The notes under the pieces were generated by a model. It was not told the origin of the DNA and ran no database searches. It saw only the letters and a list, made by a program, of their open reading frames with translations. A stretch of 64,000 nucleotides of DNA, taken from positions 19,013-83,012 of the forward strand of contig JAFXTB010000155.1 of assembly GCA_017525225.1 (NCBI GenBank). Direction: 5' to 3'. How positions within the stretch are numbered: the first letter of the stretch is position 1; each line of letters opens with the position of its first letter. The position numbers and the translations under genes are program-made. This DNA is from Kiritimatiellia bacterium. Lineage in GTDB: Bacteria > Verrucomicrobiota > Kiritimatiellia > RFP12 > UBA1067. Shown piece by piece: positions 7,451 to 52,332 of this stretch.

Positions 7451-7461
7451 TTTAATCCTCC

Positions 7462-22074: not shown

Positions 22075-22274
22075 CACAGACGCAAAATCATCCGTTGGCA
22101 AACGGTTTGCGAGCATATCGCAGACCGCCAGTCAATTTTTATTGAAATTATTAAACATTTGTTGGAATGATTAAACGGTTTCTTCTGGATGGTGCCCCGA
22201 GGGGGAGTCGGACCCCCACGCCTTTCGGCCCGTGGATTTTGAGTCCAGGTCGTCTGCCATTCCGACACCGGGGC
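22075..22274. repeat. 200-bp direct repeat, copy B (tRNA-Leu plus leader)
   Basis: This is the partner of the block at 17152-17351, same orientation and same length. The 20-bp units here are 22157-22176 and 22137-22156. GATTTTGCGTCTGT at the right-to-left end is followed by TATTAAGTATGCT, a likely -10 region for GP88. The gap 22026-22305 contains only this repeat. Confidence 0.9.
22190..22274 (-). tRNA. tRNA-Leu (CAA), copy B
   Basis: Identical to copy A over all 85 bases, including the encoded CCA, the CAA anticodon and the unusual TCCGACT T loop. Confidence 0.9.
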
Positions 22275-35486: not shown

Positions 35487-37670
35487 TCAGGCGGCGAAGC
35501 CGATGGCACGGCTCTTGTCGCCATCCTTCTTCACAGCGCACTCCTCCTTGAGCGCCGCGATGCGCTCGGCGTTCGTGGCGTCCTCGCCGAGATAGAACAT
35601 CTCCTGGCGGACGGTGCGGAAGTCGCCCGGAGCGACGTTCCGGAGCAGGCGCAGCTCGGCGCACTCCTCGTCCGAGAGCTTCGTCTTGAACATGCGCTCG
35701 AAGAAGGCCTTCTTCCCGGCATCGTCGAGGTAGCCGAACTCCAGCTTGAACGTGAACCGGCGCATCGTCGCGGGGTCGAGGTTCTTGGAGAAGTTCGTGG
35801 CGGCGACCATGATGCCGTCGAAGTTCTCCATCTGCTGGAGGAGCTCGTTCACCTGGGTGATCTCCCAGCTACGAGCAGCATGAGTGCGGTCCTGCAGGAG
35901 GCCGTCCACCTCGTCGAAGAAGAGGATGGCGTGCTCGGCCTCCGCCTGACGGAACGCACGGACGATGTTCTGCTCGCTCTCACCCACCCATTTCGAGAGG
36001 ATGTCGCTGCCCCTCATCACCACGACCTTGCGGTCGAGCTCCTTGCCGAGATACTTCACGAACTCTGTCTTGCCCGTGCCGGGAGGCCCGTAGAGGAGGA
36101 TGTTCATCCTGGGCTTGTCCTCGGAGGCGGCGCTGAAGCCGGCGTCGAGGTAGTTGCGCGCAGCCTTCACCAGGCGCTCCAGGGAGACCTTGCCCCTGAT
36201 GTTGAGCCCGTCGAGCGAGTAGTCCTTCGCGGGGAGGAAGGTGTTGGCGTCCTTGACGCCCATGAGCTTGCAGTGGGGCTTCATGAGCGTGGCGACCAGC
36301 TCGTCCACCTTGTCGGGCGCGGGAGCCATCCGCTTCACGTTCGCGAGCACGGTGGAAATGCCGCCCGCGCTCGTCTCGTACCTGGCGGCGTACTCCTCCA
36401 TCTTCGACTCGGGGACGAGCGCCTCGAGGCCATGCTTCGCCACCTGGTTGCGCCAGATGGAGACACGCTGGGCGCCCGTGAGCCTCTCGAAGCAGATGGA
36501 GTAGTCGAAGCGGCGGCGCACGGACTCGTCCATCGCCCCGGCCGGGGCGTTGGAGATCCACACGGCGGGAATCTTCATCTCGTCGAGAATCGAGTTCATC
36601 ACGCCCTTCTCGGTGGACTTGCCGCCGGTGTCGAACCCGAAGAGTCCGAAGAGGCTGAACCCGCCCGAGCTGCCGCGCAGGAGCTCGTCCGCCTCGTCCA
36701 CGATCATCAGACTCGTGGCGGGGTCCCCCTGGCCGTTGCACACCTGGATGCCCATCATGCGGGCCTCGGACTTCATGTTCCGTCCGTCCTCGTCGCCCTG
36801 GCGGATCTCCCAGGCCGTGCGCCCGAGCTCCTTCGCGAGGGAGCGGGCGAAGGAGGTCTTGCCCGTCCCCGGAGCGCCATAGAGGAGGATGTTGCACTTG
36901 CCGCCGCTCGCGGTGACCATGCGCTTGAGAACCTCGCCATCCTTGGTCGAGAGGTCGCCGAAGAACTCCCAGGGGAGAATATCCTTCCCCTCGCTCTTCG
37001 AGTAGAAGCGGCGCTCGATGGTCTCATCGGACGTGCCGTCCATGAACCCGCCGAGCGTGCGGCGGCTGAAGTCGTAGTCGCTATCGAGGAGACCAAGCTT
37101 CAGCAGCTTGCCCTGAGGAGACATCGCCTTCACCACCTCGTCGTAGGAACGGTCGAGCGCCATCGCGTAGTAGAGCGGCTTCTCGCGGTCCTCCACGCGA
37201 ACCGGCCAGCTGAAGCACGTCTGGTCGCGAACGTAGGCGAAGACGAGCAGCTCCGCCTCGAGCTCGTTCAGCTTGAGGACGCGCACGAGCTCGTCGAAGC
37301 GGCGTGCGACGATGTCCTCGGTCCCCGGGCCGCATTCCGCCTCCATGTACTCGCGTACCGTATCGAGGACGACACGGCACTTGTCCCGCGCGCCCTCATT
37401 GTTCCAGAGCGCGCAGAAGATGTCGTCCAGCGGGTCGCTGAGGTCCAGCCGGCAGTTGCGAGCACGGACCTTGGCCATCTCCGCGAGTTCCGCCGGCGAG
37501 TACGCCGCCTCGATGAGCTCAACCCCCTTGTCGTGGTCGAAACAGTTCCGGACTACATCGAAGAAGTCGTCGTCGCGACAGTCGTTCTTGTAGTTCTTAA
37601 CCACGTTTCCCCAGTGCGTCAGGAGTTTCTTGTAGAGGTAGTCCTGAGGGATCTGCTTGAATCTTGCCAT
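35487..37670 (-). CDS. Tandem AAA+ ATPase
   Basis: This 727-residue protein has two AAA+ modules. The first has LLYGAPGTGKTSFARSLAKE and SLMIVDEADELL. The second has LLYGPPGTGKTEFVKYLGKE, then ILFFDEVDGLLQDR and VAATNFSKNLDPATMRRF. Both Walker A and B sites look intact, so both rings could hydrolyse ATP. Such proteins remodel or unfold protein complexes. A first third of about 240 residues is family-specific and not recognised. AGGAG supports the ATG at 37670. The small KVKMVMRIY protein ends 36 bases upstream and may be its adaptor or substrate; clpP follows downstream. Confidence 0.85.
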   Translation of the reverse strand: MARFKQIPQDYLYKKLLTHWGNVVKNYKNDCRDDDFFDVVRNCFDHDKGVELIEAAYSPAELAEMAKVRARNCRLDLSDPLDDIFCALWNNEGARDKCRVVLDTVREYMEAECGPGTEDIVARRFDELVRVLKLNELEAELLVFAYVRDQTCFSWPVRVEDREKPLYYAMALDRSYDEVVKAMSPQGKLLKLGLLDSDYDFSRRTLGGFMDGTSDETIERRFYSKSEGKDILPWEFFGDLSTKDGEVLKRMVTASGGKCNILLYGAPGTGKTSFARSLAKELGRTAWEIRQGDEDGRNMKSEARMMGIQVCNGQGDPATSLMIVDEADELLRGSSGGFSLFGLFGFDTGGKSTEKGVMNSILDEMKIPAVWISNAPAGAMDESVRRRFDYSICFERLTGAQRVSIWRNQVAKHGLEALVPESKMEEYAARYETSAGGISTVLANVKRMAPAPDKVDELVATLMKPHCKLMGVKDANTFLPAKDYSLDGLNIRGKVSLERLVKAARNYLDAGFSAASEDKPRMNILLYGPPGTGKTEFVKYLGKELDRKVVVMRGSDILSKWVGESEQNIVRAFRQAEAEHAILFFDEVDGLLQDRTHAARSWEITQVNELLQQMENFDGIMVAATNFSKNLDPATMRRFTFKLEFGYLDDAGKKAFFERMFKTKLSDEECAELRLLRNVAPGDFRTVRQEMFYLGEDATNAERIAALKEECAVKKDGDKSRAIGFAA

Positions 37671-37705
37671 GTTTTTTTTACTCCTCGTTGTTTGTTGTTT
37701 GAAAT

Positions 37706-37999
37706 TCAACCGTGCAGGCCGAAGAAGTCCTCGGCGGACATGACTCCGCCGTCGTCTTTCCGTGTCGGCTCGTTTCCGCGCTCGAGCTGCATCTTCTCGC
37801 CGGTACGGCCGGCGATGATTGCCAGCGCACGTTTCCTGGATACGCCATAGATGCGCATGACCATCTTGACCTTCAGTTCGGCAAAGAGGTCCTTCGCAGA
37901 GGACTTCTTGCCGCGCGACCGTCCCTTGCGGACGGGTGTTTCGGGTTTCTCTACATCGCCGAAGAACTCGGCGGCGCTCATCATCGTGCTGTCTTTCAT
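37706..37999 (-). CDS. Small KVKMVMRIY protein with terminal MSA-x-x-FFG motifs
   Basis: This 97-residue protein shares the core AELKVKMVMRIYGVSRKRAL with the one at 14911-15171. Near each end it repeats a short motif: MSAAEFFGD at the N-terminus and MSAEDFFGLHG at the C-terminus. Between lies a basic stretch (VRKGRSRGKKSS). Paired hydrophobic terminal tags suggest bivalent docking to a partner, plausibly the AAA+ ATPase encoded next. GGAA eight bases upstream favours the ATG at 37999 over 38017. Function unknown. Confidence 0.65.
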   Translation of the reverse strand: MKDSTMMSAAEFFGDVEKPETPVRKGRSRGKKSSAKDLFAELKVKMVMRIYGVSRKRALAIIAGRTGEKMQLERGNEPTRKDDGGVMSAEDFFGLHG

Positions 38000-38131
38000 C
38001 GTGTTAGTTCCTTGCATGTACTGTTTTCACCGACATTTATCATCTGCCGACAAAGTATTTAACAATGCCGCAGATGTTTCATTACGTGAAAAATGGTTTT
38101 TTCTTCTGAACTGGGGATTTCTCCGTGCCGT

Positions 38132-38749
38132 TCACGCCGCAGGCGTGAACGGATCCTCGCTGTCAAGCGCGCGATCGAAATATCCGGGGCCATATTTCCG
38201 GAGCAGGTGGCCGACGCGGCATTTTCTCACAAAGACGTTGTTGGGCGTGAGGTGATAACGTGCCGCAAGTTCCTTCCCGGTCGCCATGCCCGTCGTGATG
38301 CCAGTGTAGATGGCAAGGTCCCGACGGGAGATGTCATGATTCCTGCGGAACATTTCGAGTGCACGCGCAAGCGCCCGGCTACGGATGTCGGCATCGATAT
38401 ACTGGCCACGGTGGCCGCTCGTGAGGATATCGGCTAGCATCTTCGATGTCTCTTCGACGTATTTGGCATGGCGCTCGCCGTGTTCCCTCAGATGGGAAAG
38501 ATACGAACGCGCCTGCCAATACAGCGCCTTGACCCAACCCGCTTCCGTCCGTGGCAGCTTGTCGCCGTAGGCCATACGGTCTTTGACGAACATGAGCTTG
38601 TAGTAGGCGAACTCTACCGCGTCCTCGCGATCGGCATGGCTGTAGCGGTGGCTGAGCATCTGCACGATCGACTTACGGGTCTTTGCGTAGAGCACACCCC
38701 AGACGGTGAGGGTTGGATAAGGCATTTCTGTTTCGTTGTCGAATACCAT
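38132..38749 (-). CDS. Small sigma-70/ECF-like regulator (B)
   Basis: This 205-residue protein has an ECF-like layout: a region-2-like helix set (HADREDAVEFAYYKLMFVKD, AGWVKALYWQARSYLSHL) and a C-terminal helix-turn-helix (SRRDLAIYTGITTG, GKELAARYHLTPNNVFVRK). It parallels the regulator at 23404-24018 at low identity. The ATG at 38749 follows AAGGAAAACC. The GATTTTGCGTCTGT motif lies 105 bases upstream (38852-38865). It leads a row with the small protein and the AAA+ ATPase, so it may control them. Confidence 0.55.
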   Translation of the reverse strand: MVFDNETEMPYPTLTVWGVLYAKTRKSIVQMLSHRYSHADREDAVEFAYYKLMFVKDRMAYGDKLPRTEAGWVKALYWQARSYLSHLREHGERHAKYVEETSKMLADILTSGHRGQYIDADIRSRALARALEMFRRNHDISRRDLAIYTGITTGMATGKELAARYHLTPNNVFVRKCRVGHLLRKYGPGYFDRALDSEDPFTPAA

Positions 38750-38851
38750 GTGGTTTTCCTTGTTTGGACGGCGTGCCGTTGAAGCAAACGCCACCCGGGT
38801 CTGCCTCAAATCCTGGCCCATCCAGAATCCAGGATTCACCTCTTATATACA

Positions 38852-38992: not shown

Positions 38993-40945
38993 ATGCCAAA
39001 AGAAAAATCAACAAAGTCGCAGGATGTACAGCCAAAGCGCAAAGTCCTGATTTCCTTCATCAGCTATGATCAGGATGATTTCGAGGTCAAGAAAACCGAT
39101 GAATCATTCATGAAATCTTATCTGCTTCCTGATGATCGTGTTCCGCAGAGCCGTCATGAGATCTGGCGGCCGTCCGTCGCACTTGCTCAACTACAGGGAT
39201 TAGAGGAACATTACGACGACCTGGTTTTCGACGACTACTATCTCCTCACGGACAACCGTGACAAACACAAGAAAGTCAAGGAAGAAGTCATAGAGGACAT
39301 CCGCCACGTAGCGCCGACGCTCAATCTAGTAGTCGACGATCCAAGAATCAAGAATCCTTTCGACACCTACGAAGTCTACCAGCGGTTCGTCGAGTACTTT
39401 TCCGACGAAAAATTTCACAGGGCGAATACCGAATACTACGTCAACTGCACCAGCGGAACCTCGCAGATACGCAACTGTCTCTTCCTACTCACACAGATGG
39501 GCCAGATCGATGCACGCCGCATAGATCCCACACCATGGAGGAACCACAAACAACGGGGCAAGAAAAAAGACAACCAGTACAAAGAAGACGGTCGGCGCTG
39601 GGTCAAGGGTTCGTATAAGATTGATGACCCCCGTGAGTTTACCGAGGCCTGCCGTAAAACGACTGAGTCAACGGACAAGGGGACGCTCGGTTTTCTGAAG
39701 TACGGTGTAACCACAAAGGACTACAGCAAGCTCGAGAAGATCGCACACATCATTGACAAGATCAAAGAAATCAAGAACCCAAAGTTAAGGGCGCAGCAGT
39801 CGATCCTGCTGACGGGGGAAACGGGCGTTGGGAAAACGCAAATGGCGCGAAACATTGCCGATGCATTTATGGGCAGGCGTGACAAGAAGAATTTCATCTC
39901 CCTAAATTGCGCGATGATTCGCGGGTCTGACGCGAACATCCAGCGAATGGAACTTTTTGGAAACAAGAAGGGCTTTCCCAACGCGAATGACCAGGAAAAA
40001 CCCGGTGTGTTTAGCACGGCCAACGGCAAAATCCTGTTTCTTGACGAAATCGGAGAACTCCATCCGACAATACAGGCCATGCTTCTTGCGGTGCTCGATG
40101 TGGACGACGACGGAAATTTCAATTTCGTCCCTCTCGGTGGCGACCCGTCCAAACCAGAGAAAAGCTCCTTTATGCTGATCTGCGGAACAAACCGCCCGTT
40201 GGAACAGCAGTTGGAGGAGAACGCTTCCTCAGAAATCCATTTTCGAAGTGATTTGTTCAATAGAATCAACGCCTGGCATTTTGAACTGGCTCCGCTCCGA
40301 GAACGCCGGGAGGACATTCCCGAGAATGTCGATTCAATCTTGAACGAGTTCTATGCCGATACAAATGGGAAGCGTCCCCTGTTCAAACCAACAGCGCTCA
40401 AAAAATTTCTCGACTTTGCCAAAGAAGAAAAGTGCACCACTTGGGACGGGAATTTCCGCGAACTAAACGCAATAGTGAGGCGCATGGCGATCCTCGCAGT
40501 CAACAACACCATTACGGATGAGATCGTGGAAGAGGAAATTAAAGCAGCTCAAAAACAGTACGAAGCCAAACGGCAACGCAGTGCTTCCGCAGTTGAAGAA
40601 ACGGCGCGTCAAGCAACAATGGAAGCACCTCGCCAGGAGGAGAAGGAGGAACCCCATCAAGAACGGGACCACCACTCCATTATTGGCGATGACACCTACA
40701 AATCCTTAAGTCTCCTTGACCAGGCAGAGTTCGATATCCTCGCGAAGACTGTCATGGAGGACCGTGTGACCGACCGGCAAGAGCTGATCGAAAAAGTGTA
40801 CGGCATACGGACTTCGGGCAAAGGGGCGGGCAAATTGAAACTGTCTTCGGGAGGTCTGACGCATCGCCTCTCCAATAAATTCAATCTGCGTCTCGTCAAA
40901 GGGAAACTGGTGAGAATCGAAAATCCCCAGCCCCCTGCAACCTAA
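38993..40945 (+). CDS. RtcR-like CARF-AAA+ regulator lacking the GAFTGA loop
   Basis: This 650-residue protein resembles RtcR, the sigma-54 activator of RNA repair. Its N-terminal CARF-type domain (VLISFISYDQDDFE, WRPSVALAQLQGLEEHYDDL, EYYVNCTSGTSQIRNCLFLL) should bind a nucleotide ligand. The AAA+ domain has LLTGETGVGKTQMARNIA, ILFLDEIGELHPTIQAM and a FRSDLFNRINAWHFELAPL second region of homology. Where sigma-54 activators have GAFTGA, this one has KKGFPNAND, so contact with sigma-54 may be lost or changed. A helix-rich C-terminus follows a Lys/Glu linker. No rtcA or rtcB is nearby. It converges on the sigma-70 gene with a 12-base gap. Confidence 0.8.
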   Translation: MPKEKSTKSQDVQPKRKVLISFISYDQDDFEVKKTDESFMKSYLLPDDRVPQSRHEIWRPSVALAQLQGLEEHYDDLVFDDYYLLTDNRDKHKKVKEEVIEDIRHVAPTLNLVVDDPRIKNPFDTYEVYQRFVEYFSDEKFHRANTEYYVNCTSGTSQIRNCLFLLTQMGQIDARRIDPTPWRNHKQRGKKKDNQYKEDGRRWVKGSYKIDDPREFTEACRKTTESTDKGTLGFLKYGVTTKDYSKLEKIAHIIDKIKEIKNPKLRAQQSILLTGETGVGKTQMARNIADAFMGRRDKKNFISLNCAMIRGSDANIQRMELFGNKKGFPNANDQEKPGVFSTANGKILFLDEIGELHPTIQAMLLAVLDVDDDGNFNFVPLGGDPSKPEKSSFMLICGTNRPLEQQLEENASSEIHFRSDLFNRINAWHFELAPLRERREDIPENVDSILNEFYADTNGKRPLFKPTALKKFLDFAKEEKCTTWDGNFRELNAIVRRMAILAVNNTITDEIVEEEIKAAQKQYEAKRQRSASAVEETARQATMEAPRQEEKEEPHQERDHHSIIGDDTYKSLSLLDQAEFDILAKTVMEDRVTDRQELIEKVYGIRTSGKGAGKLKLSSGGLTHRLSNKFNLRLVKGKLVRIENPQPPAT

Positions 40946-40957
40946 TCTCCTTTAAGT

Positions 40958-42289
40958 TTAAGCACATTTCACCTGATCTCGCAGGTAGCGCAATCGTCTG
41001 GGATGGCGTAGCATACGCAACGCCTTCGCCTCGATCTGGCGTACGCGTTCGCGCGTGACGTTGAACATCTGGCCGATTTCCTCCAGCGTACGGGAATTGC
41101 CGTCTGTCAAGCCATACCGGTAGTCGATTACCTCGCGCTCGCGAGGCCCCAGCGTTTGCAGGACATCCATCAACTGCTCGTGCAGGAGATTCCGATCCGT
41201 CGCCACGGACGGTTCAACACTCGTGGGATCCGCCACGAAATCGCCAAAAGAGGCGTCCTCCTCGTCTCCCACCTTCATCTGAAGCGAGATGGGACGCTGC
41301 GCCATGTTCAGAAGCTGACGCACTCTTTTCGGGGTAACGCCTAGCTCCTGCGCGAGTTCGGCCGCGGTTGGATCGCGGCCCAAGCTTTGTATCAGCTGCT
41401 TCTGGACTCGACGGAGTACCTGAAGCCGCTCGATGAGATGGACGGGCAGGCGGATCGTACGTGCCTGGTCGGCCAGCGCACGTGTCACAGACTGGCGGAT
41501 CCACCATGTCGCGTATGTCGAGAACCGATACCCCCTGCGGTAGTCAAAGCGCTCCACGGCCCGCACCAGACCGGCGTTCCCCTCCTGGATCAAGTCCAGG
41601 AACTCCAGCCCGGAGTGCATGAACCGCTTGGCGATGGACACGACCAGGCGGAGGTTGGCCTCCACCACGCGAGACCGCGCCGCCTGGACAGTCGACAACG
41701 CCCGACGCAGCTCGCCGAACTTTTTCGCGAATCGAACCTTTTTCCCGAACTCTGCATCTGCATCCGTGCAGAGCGCCTCAAAACACTTCTGGCTTATGCA
41801 CATCTCAGCCGCGCACCGCGAAACGGCCAAGGCGCTGCGGGCTCGTTTAAGTTTCTGGCGGAAAGCGGGGATCCGCGCCACAAATGCGGCACGGTCTCCT
41901 GCAAACTCGTCGGAGACAATGTTGTCGAACCGTTCCTCCTGCCCTTCAATGCGGTCGAGAAGGCGCGCATACGACGTCGGGGCAAAGGGGAAGCTGTTGA
42001 AAATCTTCTGGCACGTCACCGTGGCCGCGGCGATCGCCTTGAACAACCTCGTCTCCTCCGCCATGTTCAACATCGGTATCTGCGCCATCTGATAGAGGTA
42101 ACTCTGTACGGACGAATCCGACATCATGTACTCCTCCCGAGCCTTCTTCGCCTCCTTCTCCGTCATGTCAGGATCTGAAGGCGGTGCGGTCTCGTCGGAC
42201 ACATCTGTGTCCGTCTCGGGCGTGTCCGTCTCGGGTGTGTCCGTGTCGGGTGTGTCACCCATTTCATCAATCTCGTAGTCTTCTTCCAT
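40958..42289 (-). CDS. Primary-type sigma-70 factor
   Basis: This is a 443-residue full sigma factor. Region 1.2 is [20 protein letters not shown] (59-78). Region 2 spans 211-282, with [19 protein letters not shown] and [18 protein letters not shown], then [18 protein letters not shown] (the -10 reader). Region 3 follows, and region 4 (about 375-435) has [20 protein letters not shown] (the -35 reader). The non-conserved spacer between 1.2 and 2 is about 110 residues. The N-terminus is a tandem TDTPE repeat, not region 1.1. It could be the host's RpoD, but its place behind the fused polymerase argues for an accessory, dedicated factor. Confidence 0.92.
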
Positions 42290-42336: not shown

Positions 42337-43983
42337 TTACTTGGTACGTAGATAATACCGTGCATCCCCCTTCGATGTTACGCTATAAGGGTTCATGAGC
42401 GCGAGGCGGAGACGCGGTAGCATGTCCGGCAGCAACTTGTCAGCCGCTTGCAGTACCTCCACGAAAGGTGTCCCGCGCCGGTACGTATTCACAGACTCGT
42501 TGTAGCCGAAATCCTCCATCATCATGGTGATTTCGTTCGCGCTTGGCTCGTGGCCATCCGCCAAGAGCTTGAGCCGTATCATCCCCTTCAGGAGATCGAC
42601 TGCGAACCGCCGGTGCGACAGCGCGCGCCGCCAGATCTGGCCGACGCACGCGCGCAGGTTGACCGCCAGGGCCGGAACCACCCGATCGCCGTCGCGCAGG
42701 AAGTTGGGAATCGCCGTCACCCGTTCCAAACCCGTGCCGAGACCTTTGTTGAGATGGATTGCGCACGGGCCCGGCGCATCATTCCAGCATGCCGCATACG
42801 CCAACTCGCGGAAGCGCACGAGCGCGTCGTAGATGCCGCCGAACGCCGAGTAATACGACTTTTCCGCCTTCTCGGCGCGTTCAAGGCGTTGGATCTTGCG
42901 CGTGAATTTCTGCGGTACGACCTGTGCCGCGTGCCGGAACTCGCTTTTCCGCGCCGCGCGGTCCGCCTTCTCTCGCGCGGTCATCCGGCGAAGGGTCTCC
43001 TTCAGTGTCTGCTCGATCGCCTCCGTGCCGTCCGTCAGCGCAAGCCACTGATCCTGCTGCCACCTGAAGGCGTTGCGTGGGGACGCCACACGCTCGAAGA
43101 GGTAGTTCGAGTTCGCGCTCTGCACGATGTTGCAGGCAACCTTGCCAGGAGCGCGGCGGAGGCCGCGTCCGCACATCTGGATCGTCGGCAGACGCGAGGC
43201 ATCGCGCGCGAAGATGCTCATCACATCGGGCTGGTCGAAACCCTCCGTGAGCATCGCCACGTTCGCCACCACCTGCACGCGGCCGTTTGCAAACGCCTCG
43301 ATCTGACTCTCCTTGTCGCTCTCGCCCGTTACCACCTCGCACGCCACACCGCCTGCGGCGAGGCGCTCGCGGAACGCCACGCATTCGGCGATCGTGGAGA
43401 AGAATACGAGGCTCTTCCCCCAGCGGGCGGGTTCAGCCAGGTAGAAATCCGCCGCCGTGTCCACACTGTAGTTCGGAATGACATACGTGTTGAACGGACT
43501 GAGATACCCTTCCCGAACGAGGCGGCCGATCGAACACGTACGCACCGTCTCCTGGAAGGAGAGCTTCATGCGGTCCGTCCGCATCGGTGTTGCCGACAGG
43601 CCGATCGTCCACTTGGCGTGCATCCGCTCGTATAGGAGCACGCAGCTCTGCGTCGCCTCGTGGTGGGCCTCGTCAAGAACGACTAGCTCCACCTCTGGCG
43701 GTACCTTCTCGAAGAGCGAAACGGGGCGGATGTTGTCACCGTGAAGGTCGCGGTTGGCTTCCATCATCTGACGCAGCAGGTGGTGGCGTGGCGCCACCCA
43801 GCCGATCTTGAGTGGACGTCCCAGATGTTCCTGGAGACGGTGGATCACCTCCAGGGCCATGTACGTCTTGCCCGAACCGACAGGCGATTCGAGCAGGACG
43901 GACGTGCGTCCCCGTTCGGTGAACGCAGCGAGAGCCGCCTTGATAGCCTCCTGCTGGTAGGGCCTCTGCTCGTACTGCATCAT
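42337..43983 (-). CDS. DEAH-box superfamily 2 helicase
   Basis: This 548-residue helicase has Q-like [12 protein letters not shown], Walker [15 protein letters not shown] (33-40 core), DEAHHEA (104-110), GLSATPMR and, in the second lobe, [10 protein letters not shown] and [15 protein letters not shown]. This is the restriction-helicase-like (UvrB/type III/DEAD) group that translocates on DNA. The C-terminal 200 residues are not recognised. The ATG follows the DUF932 stop by one base and uses its internal AGGGAGG, so translation is coupled. Within the polymerase island it might open promoters or help replication; that is inference. Confidence 0.88.
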
Positions 43984-43984
43984 C

Positions 43985-45064
43985 CTATGCGGCCTCCCTT
44001 GAGAAGTTGATGCCGCCAAGGTAGAATCTGCTGGTCCTGCCTGCGTTCGGATAGAGGTCTTCCAGGTCGAAATCCTTGGAAAGGAGCGTCCCCGCGAAGG
44101 AATGGAGCGTGGAGTCGGGCTTGAGCAGGTCCGCATGGTGCGTGGTGAGCTCAGAAGCGAAGTTGAGGAGGTCGGCCACGCTGCATCCCACGGGCAGGAG
44201 CGGACGCTTCTTCTGGCCAATGTTCGTGAGGTCAGTCACGCCGTAGCGTACGCACGGGTTCGCGGCGATTTCGTTCAGACGCTCGCGAAGGAGCATTTGG
44301 TTGCGCGTATTCGCCACAGAGCGGCGGATCAGCCCCTCCAGCAGCACAACCTCGCCCACCGATGCCTTCGTGCCGGCCGCGGTGCACATGCGCTCCTGCA
44401 GCATCTCGATGCCGGACGGATTGCTGAAGGAAACCAGCAGCCGACGGAAATGCTCGCCGCTGTTGTCCTTGATCTCCATCTTCGTGCGGAAGATTGGTGC
44501 CTCCGCCACCGCGCCGTTGGAACACACCTGGCGCCAGGTCGCGAGGCTCATGTCGGGCATGCCAACGCCGTCCACGGGCACACGGCAGCGAACGCGCACA
44601 TGGTAGGCGCTGTCGTTCGGCACACTCCACGGATCGTCAAGGTCCAGCATGGCACTCAGCATGCCGTCGCCGTATTCAACTTCCTGCAGGCGGCGGTCAT
44701 CGTGCAGTACCCTTTCAATGAACTTCACGGGCATGGGAAGTCCCTTGTCCTGCGTGAGGCCGAGGGCCTGGTTCTGCTCCGTGTCGACCGTAACGCGAAG
44801 CGGCAGGTCCGGTTCCTTCTCAGCGGCGCGGGTCATCACCTCCAGTGGTGAGAAGAACCCGAATACCCCGAAGGGAATGCCCAGTTCACCGGCGAGGGTT
44901 TTGTAGAACCGGTCGCTCAACTTGTAGGTCGTCTGACCGAGGACGAGTCCCTTGATCTTCTCGTCGTCACTGTCCAGGACCTCGACCATCTGTCGAGGCG
45001 TAATGGGGATCGGCTCGAAGCGGTCGCCGATCCATGTATTCATGTCGATTTTTTCGGCTTTCAT
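43985..45064 (-). CDS. DUF932-like protein
   Basis: This 359-residue protein resembles phage/plasmid DUF932 proteins: a lead-in with FYKTLAGELGIPFGVFGFFSP, a central NDSAYHVRVRCRV, then the SLATWRQVCSNGAVAEAP block, where family members have a C-S/T-N-G motif. A helical C-terminal half follows. DUF932 proteins are common next to replication and helicase genes, but their role is unknown. The ATG at 45064, nine bases after GGAG, is preferred to two ATGs just upstream. It is coupled to the helicase gene. Confidence 0.6.
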   Translation of the reverse strand: MKAEKIDMNTWIGDRFEPIPITPRQMVEVLDSDDEKIKGLVLGQTTYKLSDRFYKTLAGELGIPFGVFGFFSPLEVMTRAAEKEPDLPLRVTVDTEQNQALGLTQDKGLPMPVKFIERVLHDDRRLQEVEYGDGMLSAMLDLDDPWSVPNDSAYHVRVRCRVPVDGVGMPDMSLATWRQVCSNGAVAEAPIFRTKMEIKDNSGEHFRRLLVSFSNPSGIEMLQERMCTAAGTKASVGEVVLLEGLIRRSVANTRNQMLLRERLNEIAANPCVRYGVTDLTNIGQKKRPLLPVGCSVADLLNFASELTTHHADLLKPDSTLHSFAGTLLSKDFDLEDLYPNAGRTSRFYLGGINFSREAA

Positions 45065-45140
45065 GGTTTTCATCTCCATGAGGGTAAACCGAAATCATCC
45101 CACGATATTACAATTTTTTTATTAAACCTTTCAATTGCCT

Positions 45141-45240: not shown

Positions 45241-45972
45241 CTAGGTGAAAACGCTGTCCAAGGGCAGGGATGACAGGGGCCAAGCCAGGCGGCATTTTTT
45301 GCAATAGGCGCGGATATTCGTCGTATCCGTGTCTGTAAAACCGACTTCCTTGCAGAAATCTTGTCGCGTCTTCGACTTGTGGTGCTCCTTAAAACCCTCG
45401 GGGCTTTTAAGGACATCATCCCCTTCACTCTGCAACCAGTTCGCCACCGCCTCGTAGAAGGCGAATTGCCTGCGAACGGCGTCAAGTATCAGTCGCGCCT
45501 CATTGTCAGAGTCGTTGACCCGATACCCCGACAGAGGATTGCGAGGCGGAACGCACGACCATTTACCCGTCCCCCTCTGAACAAACTTGATCTCATGGAC
45601 ACGCGGAAGGGTGTCCAACGGCGACTCGTCGCCGCCGGAAAGGGCCACGTGCGCGTTGAAGGATTGGCCATCCTCACGGAGTTCATCGTCATCGACGAAC
45701 TCGGCCTCTGAATCATAGTCCTCCTCGGCGTTCTCCGCGACATCGTCGTATTCACCTTTCTGATCGTCTCCGTCGACAAAGAGCTTTTGTTCCTTAATCA
45801 ATTTCTGTATAACCTGCGCCTGGACCGCACAATCGGCGCGAACAAAAGGCGCCACTTGTATCGCAGCCTGCTTCTTGATGATTGCTTCAGCCTTCTGCTC
45901 CGCAGTAGCTTTGACATTCTTCTTGACTTCCACATGTGCGGAAGAACCTGCACTCAAACTCATGCCATACAT
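45241..45972 (-). CDS. Truncated sigma-54-like protein (core-binding plus HTH region, no RpoN box)
   Basis: I find this 243-residue protein to resemble the middle of RpoN. VQRGTGKWSCVPPRNPLSGY then RVND matches the 'V..G..W.V.LN...P.LRIN' core-binding motif. NEARLILDAVRRQFAFYEAV corresponds to the 'A..LI.AI..R..TL..V' helix. SPEGFKEHHKSKTRQDFCKE then VGFTDTDTTNIRAYCKK parallels the GPEALKPLTLKDIAE-HESTVSR helix-turn-helix. It ends WPLSSLPLDSVFT, where RpoN has FPLKYFFS. The terminal RpoN box is missing and the N-terminal activator region is replaced by an acidic segment. Similarity is by eye and could be wrong. It starts three bases after the polymerase gene and shares its GGAGG. Confidence 0.45.
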   Translation of the reverse strand: MYGMSLSAGSSAHVEVKKNVKATAEQKAEAIIKKQAAIQVAPFVRADCAVQAQVIQKLIKEQKLFVDGDDQKGEYDDVAENAEEDYDSEAEFVDDDELREDGQSFNAHVALSGGDESPLDTLPRVHEIKFVQRGTGKWSCVPPRNPLSGYRVNDSDNEARLILDAVRRQFAFYEAVANWLQSEGDDVLKSPEGFKEHHKSKTRQDFCKEVGFTDTDTTNIRAYCKKCRLAWPLSSLPLDSVFT

Positions 45973-45974
45973 GA

Positions 45975-48900
45975 CTAACCCTCCACCTCAAAACTGTTGA
46001 ACATCACCTGCGCCGACGGCGAGGTCAGCGGGACATCGCGTATCTCGCAGTTAAGGAGCCGCCCGATCATTTCAAAGTTGGCACACCGTGCGATGGACTC
46101 CAGGTCCCCGTTTTTGTCAACGACCTTCAACACCTCGTTGAGGGATTTTTTGGGGTAACTATTAAGAACCCGCCACAGAAGCTGAAGGTGCCGGGGATCC
46201 AGTTCGCTGTACGGCGTTTTCTTCCTATCGCCTGAAAAGCACAGGCGCTTGTAGAAATCGTCGTAGTCTTTGATCGTACGTTTATCCTTCTCCTCGCTCT
46301 TCTCTTTTGCGTTGATCAACTTGCGAACCGACTCTATGTCAACCTGACTTCCCAAGGCATGGGCGCTTTTCATCGAAAGCTGCGTACCGCGCTCACCGAT
46401 CGACTGCGCCGCAATCAATCCTGCCGGATATCCAACCTCGGGCAACGTGCCGTCCGACAATTTTCCATAGCACGCCGCGCAGATGCCGTCCGCACATGTA
46501 CAGTTAAGTACGGAGCGCTCGCCTTCGTGCTTGCAGTCCTCCGTTGTGATCGTCACGGGACGCAACGCGTAGACGAGGCGGCGCGTAAGGTCACCCGCCT
46601 TTCCCGTGTTGAGCTTCTTGTCGCACATCGAGGCACGAGCGTTGAATGACGACCAGAAGAGATCCTCCCACGACATGCCGCCGACAAGCGACCCCTTGAT
46701 CGTGAATTCTTTCTCATGTTTGGGTGTCGGCGTGAAACCCAGTTCACCGTATGGAAGTTTGCCGCGCGAGTTCGTGAACTGCTTGATCTGCTTCGCGCCG
46801 TTCGCGCCAGAGTTGACCATATCCGCAACAAACCCGTTCTTACCGTCATACGCCGCAAGATCGTAGAAGCCGAACGACACACCCTCTTCCGTACACTTCG
46901 CGAACGCCTCGCGCGCATACTTCAGAACGGATTCGGCTTCGCCATTCCCGCAGGCTTCAACCAACCGCTTCTCCGCGGTCTGTGAATCGCGATCGCACAG
47001 CAGGTACGCGCCCATCACTAAATCCCGGTCATAGTTCGGAGTGACCTTGAGATTGCCCGCCGAGAACAGGTTCGCAGACGGCGCCAACAGCGGCAACGAC
47101 TCCTGCGCCTTATTGGAAAGCGGCAGATAACCGGCCATCTCGTCGCCGTCGAAGTCCGCCCCGAACCCCTTACACGAAAGCGGCTGCAGACGAAACACCT
47201 CGCCGTCTTCGGGCTTGAGCACCCTCACCTTGAAGGCCTGCATGCTGTACTTGTGGAGGGACGGCTGCCGGTTCATGAGCATCCAGAGGGGATTCTGTTC
47301 AAGATAGGTTTCAAGCGCACTCGCCTTCTCATCGCGCGAGCGAGCTCTTTCGCCCCTCGGCGAACGCCACCCGAACCCTGCCATCGTCACGTCGTTGGGC
47401 GACAGAGGGTGCCCTTCTCCCATTTCGCCAGTGACCCGATCGGCCAAAAGCTCCCAGAGAACGGACGGCGGAACACCCACCTCGTCAAACGCAAGATCCG
47501 GACCTGGCGTAATGACCAGCCGGCACGAACGGTCCACGCGCCGCCCGAGTCCCTCTCGTCTCACGAGCCCGTGCTTTCCACACAACGCATCACGCAAAAC
47601 CTGAAACACGGCTGCAACCGTCTTCTCGATCTGCGTCAGTGCTTTCGCCTTATCTTCTGCCTTCGCCTTGGCATACCAATCGCACGCGGCGACGATTTCC
47701 CCATACCCAAACGGATCCTCCTCGCCTTCGTATCCCACGCGGTACCGGAGCGGCAGGACGGGAACGTAGTGCAGTTTCGTCTGGTTGTCAATGTCCTTGT
47801 CCGTCTGCGCTCTCGCAGGATAGTCTATCGGCTCTGGCAATTCAATGACGCCCCACTTCTCCTCGTCAGCACACACAAATGCCTCGCGAAGCGAACCGAA
47901 CACTTTCGGATCACTGATGCCTCCCTCCGCCGGTTCGTCCTGCACGTTGACCGCCTCAAGTTTGAAATTGTAGCCAGGCTTATTCTTCCTACATTCTTCG
48001 CATGGGCACAGCACAAGCGCATCGCCGATCTCCTTTGCCTGCTTTTCAGATGCTTCAAGGCACATCCTCTGAAGCGCCTCACTCGCGTTCATCTTAATAA
48101 AACAACGTACGTCGCCAACGCCGCCAATGCGAAGGTCCGAAGTCTTCACTTCCAGCGACAGCGTTGTGGCATTTTTGTTTATCTCTCCCTTCTTCACACC
48201 CCAAAGTGGCGTTACCTTGAGATACTCGCATGCAGCACTCGCAACCGGCATCCAATAGTTGCCTTTGTCCGCTTTCAGGGGACCTTTTATCGACACGCCG
48301 AAATGGGACAGCAACGACGCAAGGCTCAGCGTCTTGCGGCGTTCATCGTCCCCTGTCCAGTTAAAACGTTCCCCACCAAACGCAAGTGTCTCTGCATGGT
48401 GTGTACACCGGAACTGCGCAGAACGGCACGTCACCGCAGTCGCCTTCTCAATCGTCCGCTCGCTGCGGACCTGCTCCTCACCAAGCCCAATCCGCTCAAG
48501 GAGCTCGTCGTCCGTCATCCGTCCGAACGACACCGTCTTCTTCTCCTGGTTGACCTCCATCTTGATCAACATGGCCGCCAGGTAGTCGGACAGCACCTGC
48601 GGGAAACCGGTCTGGCCGAGTTCTGGATTCCCTGCTTCCTTCGTAGCCACGGCATCGGAGTTGTGAAGCAGGTCCGCGATGATTGGCTCCGATCCGGAAT
48701 AGGCGGAAAGCGCCCACATCTCCATCTCACCGACACGCTGTCCGCCGCCGATCAACCGTCCGTGCGCGGCCTGTCCCGTGGCACAGGAATACTGCGCATC
48801 CTTGCCGCCGCGGCGCGCCTGCGCCTTCAACGCGGGAATATGGTGGAGTCGGAAGAAATGCTGGTACCCGACAACGACAGGCGACTTTGTTGTCACCTTG

Positions 48901-50903
48901 CGGCCATCCGGCAATGTCCAGTGCAGTTTCGTCTTACCGAATTCGTCAAGTCCCGTCTCCTTGAGCAGCCCCTTGACCTTCTCATGGTCGATCGCACCGC
49001 AGGACGGAGCGCCGGCGGGGCCGGTGGCACCCGCCACCAGCACGTCCGCATCCGTCTTCCCTTTGTGGAACAGCCATCCAAGATGCGTCTCCAGCAGCTG
49101 ACCGGGGTTCATGCGCGACAGTACGCCATGCGGGTTCAGGAGAATGTCAACCGGCGTACCGTCGGGAAGTCTCGGCATCGCCTTCGCGGGCAGCACCTTG
49201 GAGACGACACCCTTGTTGCCGTGGCGTCCCATCAGCTTGTCGCCCGGTTCCAAGACGAACTCGCGCGCAATTCGGTACTTCAGCCTACACACGAACCCTG
49301 GATCACGCTCAAGGGGCTTCTTCATGATCTCCTGCGGATAGTCGATCTGCACGAGCATTGCGGGAGCGGCATCGACATACCGAATCGAGCGAGTAATTTC
49401 CTTGCCGTTCTTGATCATCTTGAACGTGGCAATGACCGAACCCTCGCACAGGCTCTTGCCCGGCTTCCGGATCTCGGTGCACGTCCATTCCGGACCAATG
49501 TCACATGCGTAGTCCTTCTCTTCGGTGACAGCCATCTCTTTCACGATCGCGTCGCTCACAACGACCGCGTCGTCAAGGTTCCAGCCATACCAGGGGAGGT
49601 AGGCTACGAGCAGGTCGCGCCCGATTTTCAGCTCGCCGTTCTCCGAGCAGCGCGGACACAGCCCCGCGTCCTCCAACGGTTGCATGAACTCCACAAGCCC
49701 CTCCTCGCCGCCAGACTTCACGCTTGGCGGTTTCGACCCGCTCATGGGCACGGCCTGACGCATGTTCTTCGCGCCCATCATACTGCGGGCGTCGTCGTTG
49801 TGGTTCAGGAACGGTATCAGCGACGTGCACCAGCTCACGGGGAGTCCCGATGGTAGGGCCGCCTCGCCGAGGCGGCCGCTCTTCGCGTTAATCTGGCCAG
49901 TCTTGTCCACCCAAGCCCCGCGCGCGAGCTGCAGCTGGATGCCCACCATCTCGGACTCGGGACTCTCTATCGGACAGATGCGTCCTTCAAACGAGGGATG
50001 GTTCTGGCGGAACGCAGCGGGCAGGAACCCCACGTAGCGCCTGCTCACCTTGAATCGCTTAATGCCACAGATGCGTCCCGCCGCCTCGAGGATGTTGTCC
50101 GGACGGATCACGTCAAAGCCGTTGTACCACCGCTGTCCGATCGACGAAATGGGCACAAGCGCCCGCGCCAGATCGTTCCAGCTGTCACGCTTGCTTTTCT
50201 GCGAGACAAAGACGCGATAGTAGAGCCGGAGTAGTCGGTTCCGCAACCAAATGGGGAATGTCACCGCCATGCGGTGGTCAAGATCGTCGGCATCCAATAT
50301 CTTCAATTTGCCTTCGTGCTTTTCCGTCCAATCCCGCACGTCCTTGCAAAATTCCAATCGTTCGGCCTTTTCGTCCTCCAAAACTTTCTCATACTTGGCG
50401 AGAACGCGAAAAAGCTCCTCGTCGTAGGCGCCGGGGAATGCCTTTGCCCACCAAAGGACGAAAGCGATCTCGTTCCAATTGGACCTAGACAGCTTCTTTT
50501 CATCGACGAGGATGAACTGTCCGTCCGGCATCCCCAGCCGCAACGCCTCTTTGCCGTTGGCCACCCTCACCTTACGCAGCCCCGGCATCTCGCCGAGCCA
50601 TGAGCTCCAGACCAACCTCTGGGGCGCGTCCTTGTTTTCGGCGTCGCCGCCGTGCGCCACGAAGATACCGTGATACGGCAGGGGTATCTCGAACTCCCGC
50701 TTGTCGCCGTCTTTGAAGGAAACACAGAAGCTCCCCATGAGGTCAACGTTGTTCTTGTACGCGAATTTCGCGTCCCCCGCAGTGGGGAGGATAAGTTCCA
50801 CCTTGTCCACGTCCGGCGCCACTTTCCGAATACAATCCGTGGCGGATTTATTCCACGACTCAAGTGTCTCCGCGTCGCCGTCTTTAAACATCAGCCAATT
50901 CAT
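45975..50903 (-). CDS. Compact single-chain RNA polymerase beta-beta' fusion
   Basis: This is one 1642-residue chain carrying both catalytic subunits, which normally total about 2700. Beta part: ALVPISSIGQRWYNGFD (248-264), EGRICPIESPESEMVGI (306-322), NDDARSMMGAKNMRQAVP (369-386), YLPWYGWNLDDAVVVSD (435-451), GDKLMGRHGNKG (554-565) and GGQRVGEMEMWALSAY (720-735). Beta' part: GVIELPEPIDYP, RRVDRSCRLVITPGPDL, NRQPSLHKYSMQAF, the magnesium-binding GADFDGDEMAG (1248-1258), bridge helix near 1365, trigger loop near 1404-1443, a Cys zinc site near 1457-1478 and LIAAQSIGERGTQLSMKSAH (1496-1515). All catalytic Asp residues are kept. Lobe, flap, clamp and jaw insertions are reduced. It starts the run sigma-54-like, DUF932, helicase, sigma-70. 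Confidence 0.93.
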   Translation of the reverse strand: MNWLMFKDGDAETLESWNKSATDCIRKVAPDVDKVELILPTAGDAKFAYKNNVDLMGSFCVSFKDGDKREFEIPLPYHGIFVAHGGDAENKDAPQRLVWSSWLGEMPGLRKVRVANGKEALRLGMPDGQFILVDEKKLSRSNWNEIAFVLWWAKAFPGAYDEELFRVLAKYEKVLEDEKAERLEFCKDVRDWTEKHEGKLKILDADDLDHRMAVTFPIWLRNRLLRLYYRVFVSQKSKRDSWNDLARALVPISSIGQRWYNGFDVIRPDNILEAAGRICGIKRFKVSRRYVGFLPAAFRQNHPSFEGRICPIESPESEMVGIQLQLARGAWVDKTGQINAKSGRLGEAALPSGLPVSWCTSLIPFLNHNDDARSMMGAKNMRQAVPMSGSKPPSVKSGGEEGLVEFMQPLEDAGLCPRCSENGELKIGRDLLVAYLPWYGWNLDDAVVVSDAIVKEMAVTEEKDYACDIGPEWTCTEIRKPGKSLCEGSVIATFKMIKNGKEITRSIRYVDAAPAMLVQIDYPQEIMKKPLERDPGFVCRLKYRIAREFVLEPGDKLMGRHGNKGVVSKVLPAKAMPRLPDGTPVDILLNPHGVLSRMNPGQLLETHLGWLFHKGKTDADVLVAGATGPAGAPSCGAIDHEKVKGLLKETGLDEFGKTKLHWTLPDGRKVTTKSPVVVGYQHFFRLHHIPALKAQARRGGKDAQYSCATGQAAHGRLIGGGQRVGEMEMWALSAYSGSEPIIADLLHNSDAVATKEAGNPELGQTGFPQVLSDYLAAMLIKMEVNQEKKTVSFGRMTDDELLERIGLGEEQVRSERTIEKATAVTCRSAQFRCTHHAETLAFGGERFNWTGDDERRKTLSLASLLSHFGVSIKGPLKADKGNYWMPVASAACEYLKVTPLWGVKKGEINKNATTLSLEVKTSDLRIGGVGDVRCFIKMNASEALQRMCLEASEKQAKEIGDALVLCPCEECRKNKPGYNFKLEAVNVQDEPAEGGISDPKVFGSLREAFVCADEEKWGVIELPEPIDYPARAQTDKDIDNQTKLHYVPVLPLRYRVGYEGEEDPFGYGEIVAACDWYAKAKAEDKAKALTQIEKTVAAVFQVLRDALCGKHGLVRREGLGRRVDRSCRLVITPGPDLAFDEVGVPPSVLWELLADRVTGEMGEGHPLSPNDVTMAGFGWRSPRGERARSRDEKASALETYLEQNPLWMLMNRQPSLHKYSMQAFKVRVLKPEDGEVFRLQPLSCKGFGADFDGDEMAGYLPLSNKAQESLPLLAPSANLFSAGNLKVTPNYDRDLVMGAYLLCDRDSQTAEKRLVEACGNGEAESVLKYAREAFAKCTEEGVSFGFYDLAAYDGKNGFVADMVNSGANGAKQIKQFTNSRGKLPYGELGFTPTPKHEKEFTIKGSLVGGMSWEDLFWSSFNARASMCDKKLNTGKAGDLTRRLVYALRPVTITTEDCKHEGERSVLNCTCADGICAACYGKLSDGTLPEVGYPAGLIAAQSIGERGTQLSMKSAHALGSQVDIESVRKLINAKEKSEEKDKRTIKDYDDFYKRLCFSGDRKKTPYSELDPRHLQLLWRVLNSYPKKSLNEVLKVVDKNGDLESIARCANFEMIGRLLNCEIRDVPLTSPSAQVMFNSFEVEG
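49852..49879 (+). repeat. REP element embedded in the RNA polymerase gene
   Basis: GGTAGGGCCGCCTCGCCGAG closed by GCGGCCGC forms a strong palindrome with the family's GGTAGGG head. It is read through in frame as SGRLGEAALPS (residues 342-352), in a surface segment between two conserved beta motifs, so the polymerase tolerates it. Confidence 0.7.
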
Positions 50904-50995: not shown

Positions 50996-51766
50996 CTACA
51001 TACCCTTGCAGAGGCGGTGGAGGCGAAGTCCTGGAAGGTCGCGGCGCACTCTATCGAACGCGCCCCAGAGGTTGGAAGCGAGCGAATGGGAATCGTGGAG
51101 GACGACTGCGGAAGCATCGAGGCGCTGGACGACATCCGCTCCGCGCCGGAGCCGTACTCCTGCCTTTCTGGCACCCGCAGCGACCCACGCGAGAGCGAGG
51201 TCGGCCATCAGGTGGTTGTCGGCATAGAGTCCGCCAACGTCGCTATGGCTGCCGGGGAACAGCATTTCTACGACACGCCCCTTTCCGCTACCAAGAGGCA
51301 CATGGCGGAAGAATTTCCGCGTCTCGTCGCGCGCAACGGCATGGCGTGCGCTCGCCACGTTGGCGGGGCAGGTTACGGATACATCGAGCCCTATGGTGGA
51401 ATCAACCGTATCCCAAAGGCCGAGATATGCTACTTTCGTTCCGAGCCTGTCCAGCCAATCCGCGAAATGGCGCGCAATGAGCGCACCGCGAGAGAAACCG
51501 AAAAGGAACACGCGCGTCGCAACGCCATCCGGCGGAAGCGATTCGTAGTTCGCCTCGAACCAGCGCCGCGCGTCGCGGAAGATGGCCCGCCAGTCCGAGC
51601 CAGCGATCTTGCCGCTCAGGTACGAGCCGAAATGCGTACCTGGTCCAGGCTCAAGGTGGAGCTTCTGCCGCGCATCGTCGATGCAGAGGTCCCGCATGCG
51701 CGTCACATTCGTATGTCTGCCCGCGACGCCCTTGCCCGTCCCCTCGAAAAACAGACAGAGGTTCAC
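50996..51766 (-). CDS. DUF2235 alpha/beta hydrolase (Tle1-like lipase)
   Basis: This 256-residue hydrolase has the DUF2235 start LCLFFEGTGKG and NVTRMRDL, the nucleophile elbow VFLFGFSRGALIARHF (Ser about 92), YLGLWDTVDSTIG and a late FPGSHSDVGGLYADNH carrying the His. DUF2235 proteins include phospholipase effectors of type VI secretion and cytosolic hydrolases. It starts with GTG at 51766, whose bases overlap the upstream stop (GTGA), so it depends on the 189-residue partner. No secretion genes are nearby. Confidence 0.82.
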   Translation of the reverse strand: MNLCLFFEGTGKGVAGRHTNVTRMRDLCIDDARQKLHLEPGPGTHFGSYLSGKIAGSDWRAIFRDARRWFEANYESLPPDGVATRVFLFGFSRGALIARHFADWLDRLGTKVAYLGLWDTVDSTIGLDVSVTCPANVASARHAVARDETRKFFRHVPLGSGKGRVVEMLFPGSHSDVGGLYADNHLMADLALAWVAAGARKAGVRLRRGADVVQRLDASAVVLHDSHSLASNLWGAFDRVRRDLPGLRLHRLCKGM

Positions 51767-52332
51767 GCCCTGAGACAGATGGTGAGGGAACCGGTGGGCT
51801 TGCCGGTGAGCGGACGAATAAGCTGCACCGTCACCATGCGCTCTTCGCCTTCGGCGGGGAGTTCGTCTATGTCGGCGACACCCTGCGCCACCACCTTGGG
51901 CACGTCCTTCTCGCCGATCATGACCGCCAGCGCGTCGATCGGCGAGGAGGCTATGTCCGCATAGCCGACCATCGCCTTCTCCATGAAGTCCGCGCCCATC
52001 TTGAGCGCATACTTGGCAGTAAGGCGGAGGAAGCGCCGTACCTTCTGGATGCTTACAGGTTCCGTGATGGACACGGCGATTCCGCAATGTCCGTCGACCT
52101 CCTCGCGGAACACGACGCGCTTCGTCCATGGTTCGGCGGTGAAGTCGCACACGCCCTTTTTGAACACCATCTCCCGCGCGCCCGATTTCTTCGCGATCGC
52201 GGTCCTCGGCCATACAAGGTCGAGCTGCCCGATGTTGCGGCTCTTCAAAAGCGCCTTTTCGGGAACACCCTTCAGCTCCGCCCTGACAAGCAGAAACTCC
52301 ACGTTCGCCTTTGTCCGTTTCGTCGTCGCCAT
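51763..52332 (-). CDS. Uncharacterised partner of the DUF2235 hydrolase
   Basis: I do not recognise this 189-residue protein. It begins with a basic MATTKRTKANVEFLLVRAEL and contains CDFTAEPWTKRVVFREEVDG and KYALKMGADFMEKAMVGYA, suggesting mixed alpha/beta structure. It ends in the GTGA overlap with the hydrolase. A promoter-like TATACT lies at 52414-52419, with AAAGGAGCAG before the ATG. Co-translation suggests an immunity, sensor or scaffold partner; the hint is positional only. Confidence 0.6.
   Translation of the reverse strand: MATTKRTKANVEFLLVRAELKGVPEKALLKSRNIGQLDLVWPRTAIAKKSGAREMVFKKGVCDFTAEPWTKRVVFREEVDGHCGIAVSITEPVSIQKVRRFLRLTAKYALKMGADFMEKAMVGYADIASSPIDALAVMIGEKDVPKVVAQGVADIDELPAEGEERMVTVQLIRPLTGKPTGSLTICLRA

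Follow-up and report, generated by a model that had tools for sequence, protein, structure and literature searches.

Introduction

Apart from extra rpoBC copies on plasmids, the textbook bacterium has a single RNA polymerase. In fusions of the Helicobacter/Wolinella type, beta and beta' form a single chain that is the cell's only polymerase, whereas the enzyme described here is a single-chain second polymerase, encoded in a 64,000-nucleotide window (the whole stretch of DNA that was analysed, G000:C53:19013-83012) of a Kiritimatiellia genome (4.2 Mb, 180 contigs, called 100% complete). It shares with those fusions (NCBIfam PRK09603 and PRK14844) the order of beta before beta' in one chain, but their profile lengths are 2890 and 2839 against 1642 residues here, and it scores 301 and 303 bits where the cut-offs are 5372 and 4632. 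Fused beta-beta' chains are mentioned for Adlerbacteria and Wolinella (PMC11515920).

Viral two-barrel polymerases, namely the split enzymes of jumbo phages and the split and fused enzymes of IMG/VR contigs, resemble it as compact second polymerases related to cellular RNA polymerase (RNAP), some of them fused. They differ in forming separate clades and in being split in 69 of 80 IMG/VR loci, none of which has an RtcR-like match; in addition, the IMG/VR fused and split enzymes keep an asparagine at the N458 position, unlike the window family. YonO of the SP-beta prophage and the polymerase of phage P23-45 are multi-subunit RNAP relatives on one chain (PMC5467207, PMC10770324); YonO has, according to its abstract, just very distant homology to RNAP, and it is by description that both are set beside the window enzyme.

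Two further proteins belong to the comparison. The partner encoded next to the polymerase shares with sigma54 (RpoN) the predicted region I, acidic region II and ELH-HTH, and differs in that the RpoN domain and most of the core-binding domain are absent. The nearby activator shares CARF and AAA+ parts with RtcR and the RtcR-like regulators of rtcBA and of CoCoNuT defence loci, and differs in scoring below the RtcR cut-off of 650 bits, in a changed GAFTGA motif and in that rtcB lies on another contig. The ligand of known RtcR is 5' tRNA fragments with a cyclic phosphate (PMC7790460), RtcR homologs adjoin type II CoCoNuT restriction systems (PMC11090510), and related CARF-AAA+ proteins adjoin restriction-modification systems (PMC4012209). 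No description of such an enzyme, partner or context was found in the literature searched, which covered few subscription papers; the individual parts belong to known kinds, and neither their combination nor the stripped sigma54 was known to us before.

We consider it rather likely that the single-chain second polymerase and a predicted mini-sigma54 form a holoenzyme that would be opened by the RtcR-like AAA+ protein through ATP hydrolysis. The sequence itself shows a single chain with its catalytic aspartates, a host with separate rpoBC genes, and conservation of both the partner gene and the RtcR-like neighbour. The partner genes, which the initial annotation overlooked, say most about its function.

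Results

A second polymerase gene beside the host's rpoB and rpoC

The polymerase gene and its main elements are as follows.

45975..50903, minus strand: single-chain beta-beta' RNA polymerase, 1642 aa, ATG start, uninterrupted open reading frame
48756..49310, minus strand: beta catalytic barrel region, Rpb2_6 match, residues 532-716
47142..47156, minus strand: DFDGD metal site, residues 1250-1254, usual N replaced by G1248
46563..46670, minus strand: bridge helix, residues 1412-1447, a single long helix in the model
46359..46394, minus strand: region of the first trigger helix (M1511, H1515), residues 1504-1515

The initial annotation had claimed one 1642-residue frame with the beta and beta' core motifs in order, and this proved right: five Pfam domains follow each other, beta then beta' (Rpb2_3, Rpb2_6, Rpb2_7, Rpb1_2 and Rpb1_5), together with GADFDGDEMAG, the bridge helix and GERGTQL. 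Rpb2_6 (E 2.2e-43) and Rpb1_2 (E 6.3e-26) match strongly, and Rpb2_7, at 30.2 bits, lies slightly under the Pfam cut-off of 32.1. Among solved structures, the closest sequences are those of bacterial beta subunits (8dy7_C, E 1e-54), with 8k60_D as the top beta' chain (E 1.9e-41). With both core domains, DFDGD and the two beta lysines, the protein belongs by sequence to the two-barrel (multi-subunit type) RNA polymerases.

The host's ordinary rpoB and rpoC are separate frames on contig C180 (1313 and 1457 codons, stop to stop), and the single-chain gene is therefore a second polymerase gene rather than a natural cellular rpoB-rpoC fusion serving as sole polymerase. The earlier view of a compact fused enzyme, second in its cell and outside the rpoBC/rplJL setting, holds, and neither of the circumstances named at the time as fatal to it was found: the host does not lack another rpoB and rpoC, and the alignment shows no loss of catalytic residues, the nearby exception being the equivalent of N458. 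A pseudogene is ruled out by the uninterrupted frame, the full-length alignment of 64%-identical relatives and the retained catalytic residues, and a recent duplicate of the host rpoBC is ruled out by the tree described below.

Catalytic residues are kept and the flap stretch is short

Residue positions follow E. coli numbering and were assigned by aligning the family with rpoBC of Citrobacter freundii (1342 and 1407 residues). The family alignment, A1, holds 63 of 120 listed proteins, and the family rows in trees and residue counts are every third of these plus five; the N458 count took in two additional loci. In the window enzyme all three catalytic aspartates are present, and K556, K564, R597 and H688 of the barrel correspond to beta K1065, K1073, R1106 and H1237. 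All 26 family rows retain beta' D460, D462, D464, R425, K334, R798, Q929 and H936, as well as beta R678, D814, K1065, K1073, R1106 and H1237, while M932 and R352 are kept in 25 of the 26. At the rifampicin-site positions 516, 526 and 531, the window enzyme has R, R and K.

At the position of N458, a sugar contact, 27 of the 28 family rows have G or A. An asparagine stands there in 10/10 bacterial, 7/7 viral fused, 9/9 viral split, 10/11 archaeal and 14/14 other IMG/VR rows, and the phage rows have A in two of three (Arash and D181). This contrast with nearly all other enzymes compared could mean that the enzyme is not a normal transcriptase, and that the change alters its choice of sugar or yields an untemplated or RNA-templated product acting as a defence effector. 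We regard this as very unlikely, because R425, the other sugar contact, is retained in 26 of 26 rows, and because the A of Arash and D181 occurs in phage genes of which the former is annotated as RNA polymerase (the latter as hypothetical).

The flap-bearing stretch, from beta D814 to K1065, measures 102-136 residues in the family. Among the bacteria compared it measures 150-151 in the shortest enzymes and 251-284 in the rest; elsewhere, values are 140-142 in archaea, 136 in phages Arash and D181, and 110 in one viral contig. Likewise, the D464-H936 stretch has 246-357 residues in the family versus 441-487 in bacteria, nothing aligns with positions 295 and 297 of the beta' clamp hairpin, and the window enzyme has A in place of R275. 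A polymerase with a short flap and an incomplete clamp hairpin is thus predicted. The model of residues 443-1642 has a predicted local distance difference test score (pLDDT) of 87.1 and a predicted template modelling (TM) score of 0.83; its best PDB matches are bacterial beta' chains, with TM-scores of only 0.3-0.4 because every matched chain spans just part of the model. The 'well-kept bacterial motifs' of the initial annotation are therefore true of the catalytic residues, but not of the residue before ADFDGD, nor of the flap stretch, shorter than any bacterial one compared, nor of the position in the tree, outside the cellular bacterial RpoBC.

A separate family with patchy spread

A protein search with the window polymerase scored 7998 candidates, 7173 of them at E <= 0.001, possibly including ordinary RpoB and RpoC. 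Among the 120 matches listed, the window's own included, 119 exceed 1300 residues (range 1370 to 1973), and 24, again with the window's own, are 64-100% identical across 100% of the query; further listed relatives, at 33-44% identity, are likewise single chains. The single-chain frame is therefore not a product of chance. Of the 119 long proteins listed, 116 have ADFDGDE, with G (59), A (55) or S (2) and never N in front of it, 117 have NRQP[ST]LH, and 108 have a GERGTQL-type block.

Within the class, 15 of 345 genomes (the window's own included, some with fragments) carry a single-chain polymerase at E <= 1e-120; G062 holds fragments only. Across the phylum, 4 of 387 sampled genomes do, and scans with one sequence and with the alignment found the identical four. 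A Hydrogenedentota contig, L050, holds part of another family member. The few relatives of polymerase or partner that bear organism names are from Kiritimatiellae, from Verrucomicrobia/Verrucomicrobiota or from a plain 'bacterium'. Matches were found in 51 phage and 66 plasmid records, but in none do they span 80% of the query, and among those listed (the best 20 of 51 and of 66) many carry rpoB or rpoC names.

In a maximum-likelihood tree (68 taxa, 617 columns, 60% column-coverage rule for rows), the family, including G264, G595 and L050, forms its own clade with an ultrafast bootstrap of 100. The cellular bacterial RpoBC clade (99) excludes it, and the viral fused (95, or 100 with phages Arash and D181) and viral split (100) enzymes are separate as well. 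The branching order of these four groups, with Arash and D181 counted among the viral fused enzymes, has a support of just 56-59. A smaller FastTree run, from which viral fused enzymes were absent and 15 loci spanning under half of the columns were left out, joined the family to Arash and D181 (support 1.0, long branches). The phylogeny called for by the initial annotation thus separates the family from cellular RpoBC and from the sampled viral enzymes, with the order of the groups poorly supported.

Four observations concern the compared enzymes themselves. A 1456-codon frame of an Aenigmatarchaeota contig (L058 9587-13954) matches both beta and beta' profile parts. A Pontibacillus megaplasmid (L210 916-8828) carries its own rpoB, rpoC and rpoA consecutively, and its polymerase branches outside the other sampled cellular bacterial enzymes, Parcubacteria excepted. 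In phages Arash (L207 4111-8688) and D181 (L208 8680-11700), the beta-type and first beta'-type parts are in one gene and the remaining beta' in a later gene. Finally, of 158 confirmed viral stretches 80 loci were kept, 16 of which entered the tree, and 11 of the 80 have beta-beta' in one frame of 2242-2329 codons (L244, L245, L259, L268, L276, L278, L283, L284, L286, L288 and L296, several being near copies of each other). Fusion as such is therefore not unique.

These viral fusions bear on whether the polymerase came with a mobile element or virus, whose transcription enzyme the host retained or domesticated; the neighbouring genes would then be cargo, and the enzyme would transcribe the element's own genes. 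The patchy spread is in line with such an origin, as are the GC content of the cassette (0.582 versus 0.646 around the host rpoBC), identical tRNA-Leu genes at 17267 and 22190, and a phage-type GP88 protein encoded at 21183-22025 (E 2e-11). In addition, the fused enzyme of G264 (2023-codon frame) has an integrase (PF00589, E 2.5e-12) on one side and DUF3854, AAA and DNA polymerase A genes on the other, in a stretch (L148 1303-18353) with ftsW-type and mur-ligase-type genes alongside. However, no RtcR-like match reaches E <= 1e-10 in any of the 80 viral loci, the partner profile gives a single short weak match in them (E 0.022), and the family clade excludes the sampled viral fused and split enzymes. 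Moreover, no integrase, capsid or viral structural gene was recognised among the window proteins scanned (Pfam, and PHROGs on five of them). On balance we hold this origin to be rather unlikely. The tRNA-Leu(CAA) pair itself (17267-17351 and 22190-22274, minus strand) is equal in 85 of 85 bases, about 5 kb apart, and may be an integration trace.

A mini-sigma54-like partner and an RtcR-like activator

The partner and activator genes are as follows.

45241..45972, minus strand: mini-sigma54-like partner, 243 aa, with N-terminal helices, an acidic linker and a C-terminal ELH-HTH-like part, no RpoN domain (predicted structure)
38993..40945, plus strand: RtcR-like CARF-AAA+ sigma54 activator, its gene converging tail to tail on the polymerase operon, with GFPNAN in place of the GAFTGA loop

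The partner gene is directly downstream of the polymerase gene. Sigma54 chains account for 27 of the 28 structural matches of the partner model, whose predicted structure has region I and the ELH-HTH fold of sigma54, and sequence profiles agree (the RpoN profile was built on 21 of 25 fetched loci, the other four having no frame with the motif sought). The sigma54 core-binding domain, bounded at 120-260 (PMC5505868), is not recovered: the firm C-terminal part, from about residue 112-124 of the model, maps to chain residues 264-273 onward, and between it and the N-terminal helices there is a disordered acidic linker and nothing more. Nor is the RpoN domain, which binds -24 DNA, as the partner stops at sigma54 chain residue 402-405. 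The model thus predicts a protein that keeps the activator-gated parts of sigma54 (region I, acidic region II and ELH-HTH), and that would be devoid of most of the core-binding domain and of the RpoN domain. In G595 (L204 5135-5722), a weak partner-like frame after the polymerase extends about 50 residues beyond the shared end motif and has no Pfam match.

The window activator has the CARF and AAA+ architecture of RtcR (Pfam RtcR, E 2.1e-20; Sigma54_activat, E 3.1e-31; PADLOC RtcR CARF_AAA_HTH, E 2.2e-93). At 311.9 bits, it remains under the NCBIfam RtcR equivalog cut-off of 650, and a second, full-scoring RtcR of this genome (709.7 bits) is found on C155, with the host rpoN on C40 and rtcB on C85. 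Gene context was counted in 15 of 17 loci; L050, whose 3.4 kb lie within the gene, and L051, with an ordinary split rpoBC, were set aside. In 11 of the 15 an RtcR-like gene faces the polymerase operon tail to tail, directly after the partner gene in five and past two or three accessory genes in six; among loci where none was seen, the sequences of G595 and L049 end right after the partner gene. The GAFTGA loop, which contacts sigma54 (PMC7057263), is not intact in the window activator, and [FY]TGA is retained in five of nine aligned activator loci.

Accessory genes and promoter elements

The other genes of the cassette are listed next.

43985..45079, minus strand: accessory 364-aa protein, no Pfam match, 89-92% identical in five relatives
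42337..44220, minus strand: accessory SF2 helicase
40958..42289, minus strand: accessory RpoD-like sigma70-family factor, in three of ten loci
38132..38839, minus strand: extracytoplasmic-function (ECF) sigma-like protein, profile match only, no Pfam hit, in six of ten loci
37706..38017, minus strand: small protein, gene ahead of the AAA ATPase
35487..37709, minus strand: accessory double AAA ATPase, IetA-like AAA, 126 bits, below the NCBIfam cut-off of 510

The ECF-like match has an hhalign probability of 88 (E 3e-6) over a shallow alignment, with no control run. The accessory set varies among polymerase loci. Upstream of the polymerase lie an AAA_5 and a PDDEXK_7-like protein in G083 and G562 (the PDDEXK_7 matches being weak, E 0.012 and 0.0036), a PDDEXK_1 protein and a RecD-like helicase in G055, and DUF445 in G054 and its cluster mates G026 and G056.

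A sigma54 -24/-12 element scoring 10 of 11 precedes the small gene in G054 and G056, two closely similar loci, and sites scoring at least 10 number three in 577,172 strand-bases. Weaker elements precede this gene in G064 (9) and G006 (8), and none was found before it in the window. Good elements of this kind would be read by the host RpoN, which exists, and the partner has no part that binds -24 DNA; hence RtcR and host RpoN might merely switch on the island, with the 243-aa protein as an assembly factor or inhibitor of the single-chain enzyme rather than an initiation factor. Yet the partner keeps region I and ELH-HTH, the parts acted on by the activator (PMC5505868), and in G083, G011, G055 and G562 it stays with the polymerase, with neither the helicase gene nor the 364-aa gene found alongside. 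We therefore judge a role other than initiation improbable.

Elsewhere in the window, in the 356-aa protein encoded at 2133-3203 (minus strand), an RNA polymerase alpha C-terminal domain (E 2.7e-21) follows an N-terminal part that has no Pfam match. This protein was dropped as a part of the cassette because it is about 43 kb away; none of the ten clustered loci yielded a relative. At 5279-11646 (minus strand) are two adjoining GmrSD-type genes, one with a sacsin domain and DUF7834, and at 50996-52332 (minus strand) there is a Tle1-like phospholipase sequence (PF09994) with an overlapping second frame alongside, possibly a broken gene.

Discussion

Polymerase, partner and activator probably constitute, to judge from their genes, a self-contained second sigma54-type transcription machine, gated by a signal and devoted to stress or defence. 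In such a machine, the CARF domain would sense a ligand such as broken tRNA, and ligand binding would lead the AAA+ ring to assemble. The ring, driven by ATP, would pull on region I of the mini-sigma54; the gate would then open and allow promoter opening by the single-chain enzyme. The small enzyme may transcribe a limited gene set, probably the surrounding nuclease and NTPase genes, and the setting would probably be a stress or antiviral response. That varying nuclease and NTPase genes accompany an RtcR-type regulator is what suggests a defence or RNA-damage response. The word 'dedicated', used of the polymerase in the initial annotation, is still an interpretation, now backed by the adjoining sigma54-like partner and RtcR-like activator.

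Several results weigh against this proposal. The partner model has a mean pLDDT of 71, with disordered parts, and no Foldseek match at E <= 0.001; hhalign of the window's close partner family alone versus sigma54 is non-significant (E 0.34), the partner profile finds no sigma54 among PDB sequences (best E 0.99, unrelated), and 31 of 33 partners have no sigma54 model match in Pfam at E <= 10. The sigma54-contacting loop is lost in three of nine aligned loci (in G011, in G055 and in the window, which reads GFPNAN) and one residue off in G006 (FTDA) and G562 (GAFTDA). With regard to context, G044 continues for 1.65 kb past the partner gene without RtcR, and G264, a member of the family, has no partner match and merely a weak AAA match to RtcR (E 1.2e-4). 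Short flaps occur also in archaeal and phage enzymes, and no sigma54-type element at a score of at least 8 lies upstream of the polymerase genes looked at. Lastly, the sigma70-family factor of the window could serve the polymerase instead of the partner, and this RpoD-like protein may even be its main factor, though it occurs in just three of ten loci.

A bolder version of the machine is conceivable, and we put it forward tentatively, with more doubt than belief. It would be an orthogonal system composed of a one-chain two-barrel polymerase, a stripped sigma54 reduced to the AAA+-operated gate alone, and a CARF activator reading broken RNA, and it would act as an emergency polymerase that sustains the transcription of defence genes when a phage or toxin cripples the main polymerase.

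If the proposed holoenzyme and activator are real, they would be the smallest AAA+-gated transcription system known to us, and would offer a clean way to test which parts of sigma54 activator-dependent opening requires. They could become a simple two- or three-gene orthogonal transcription tool. In the bacteria that carry them, a polymerase may thus have been recruited to a stress or antiviral response.
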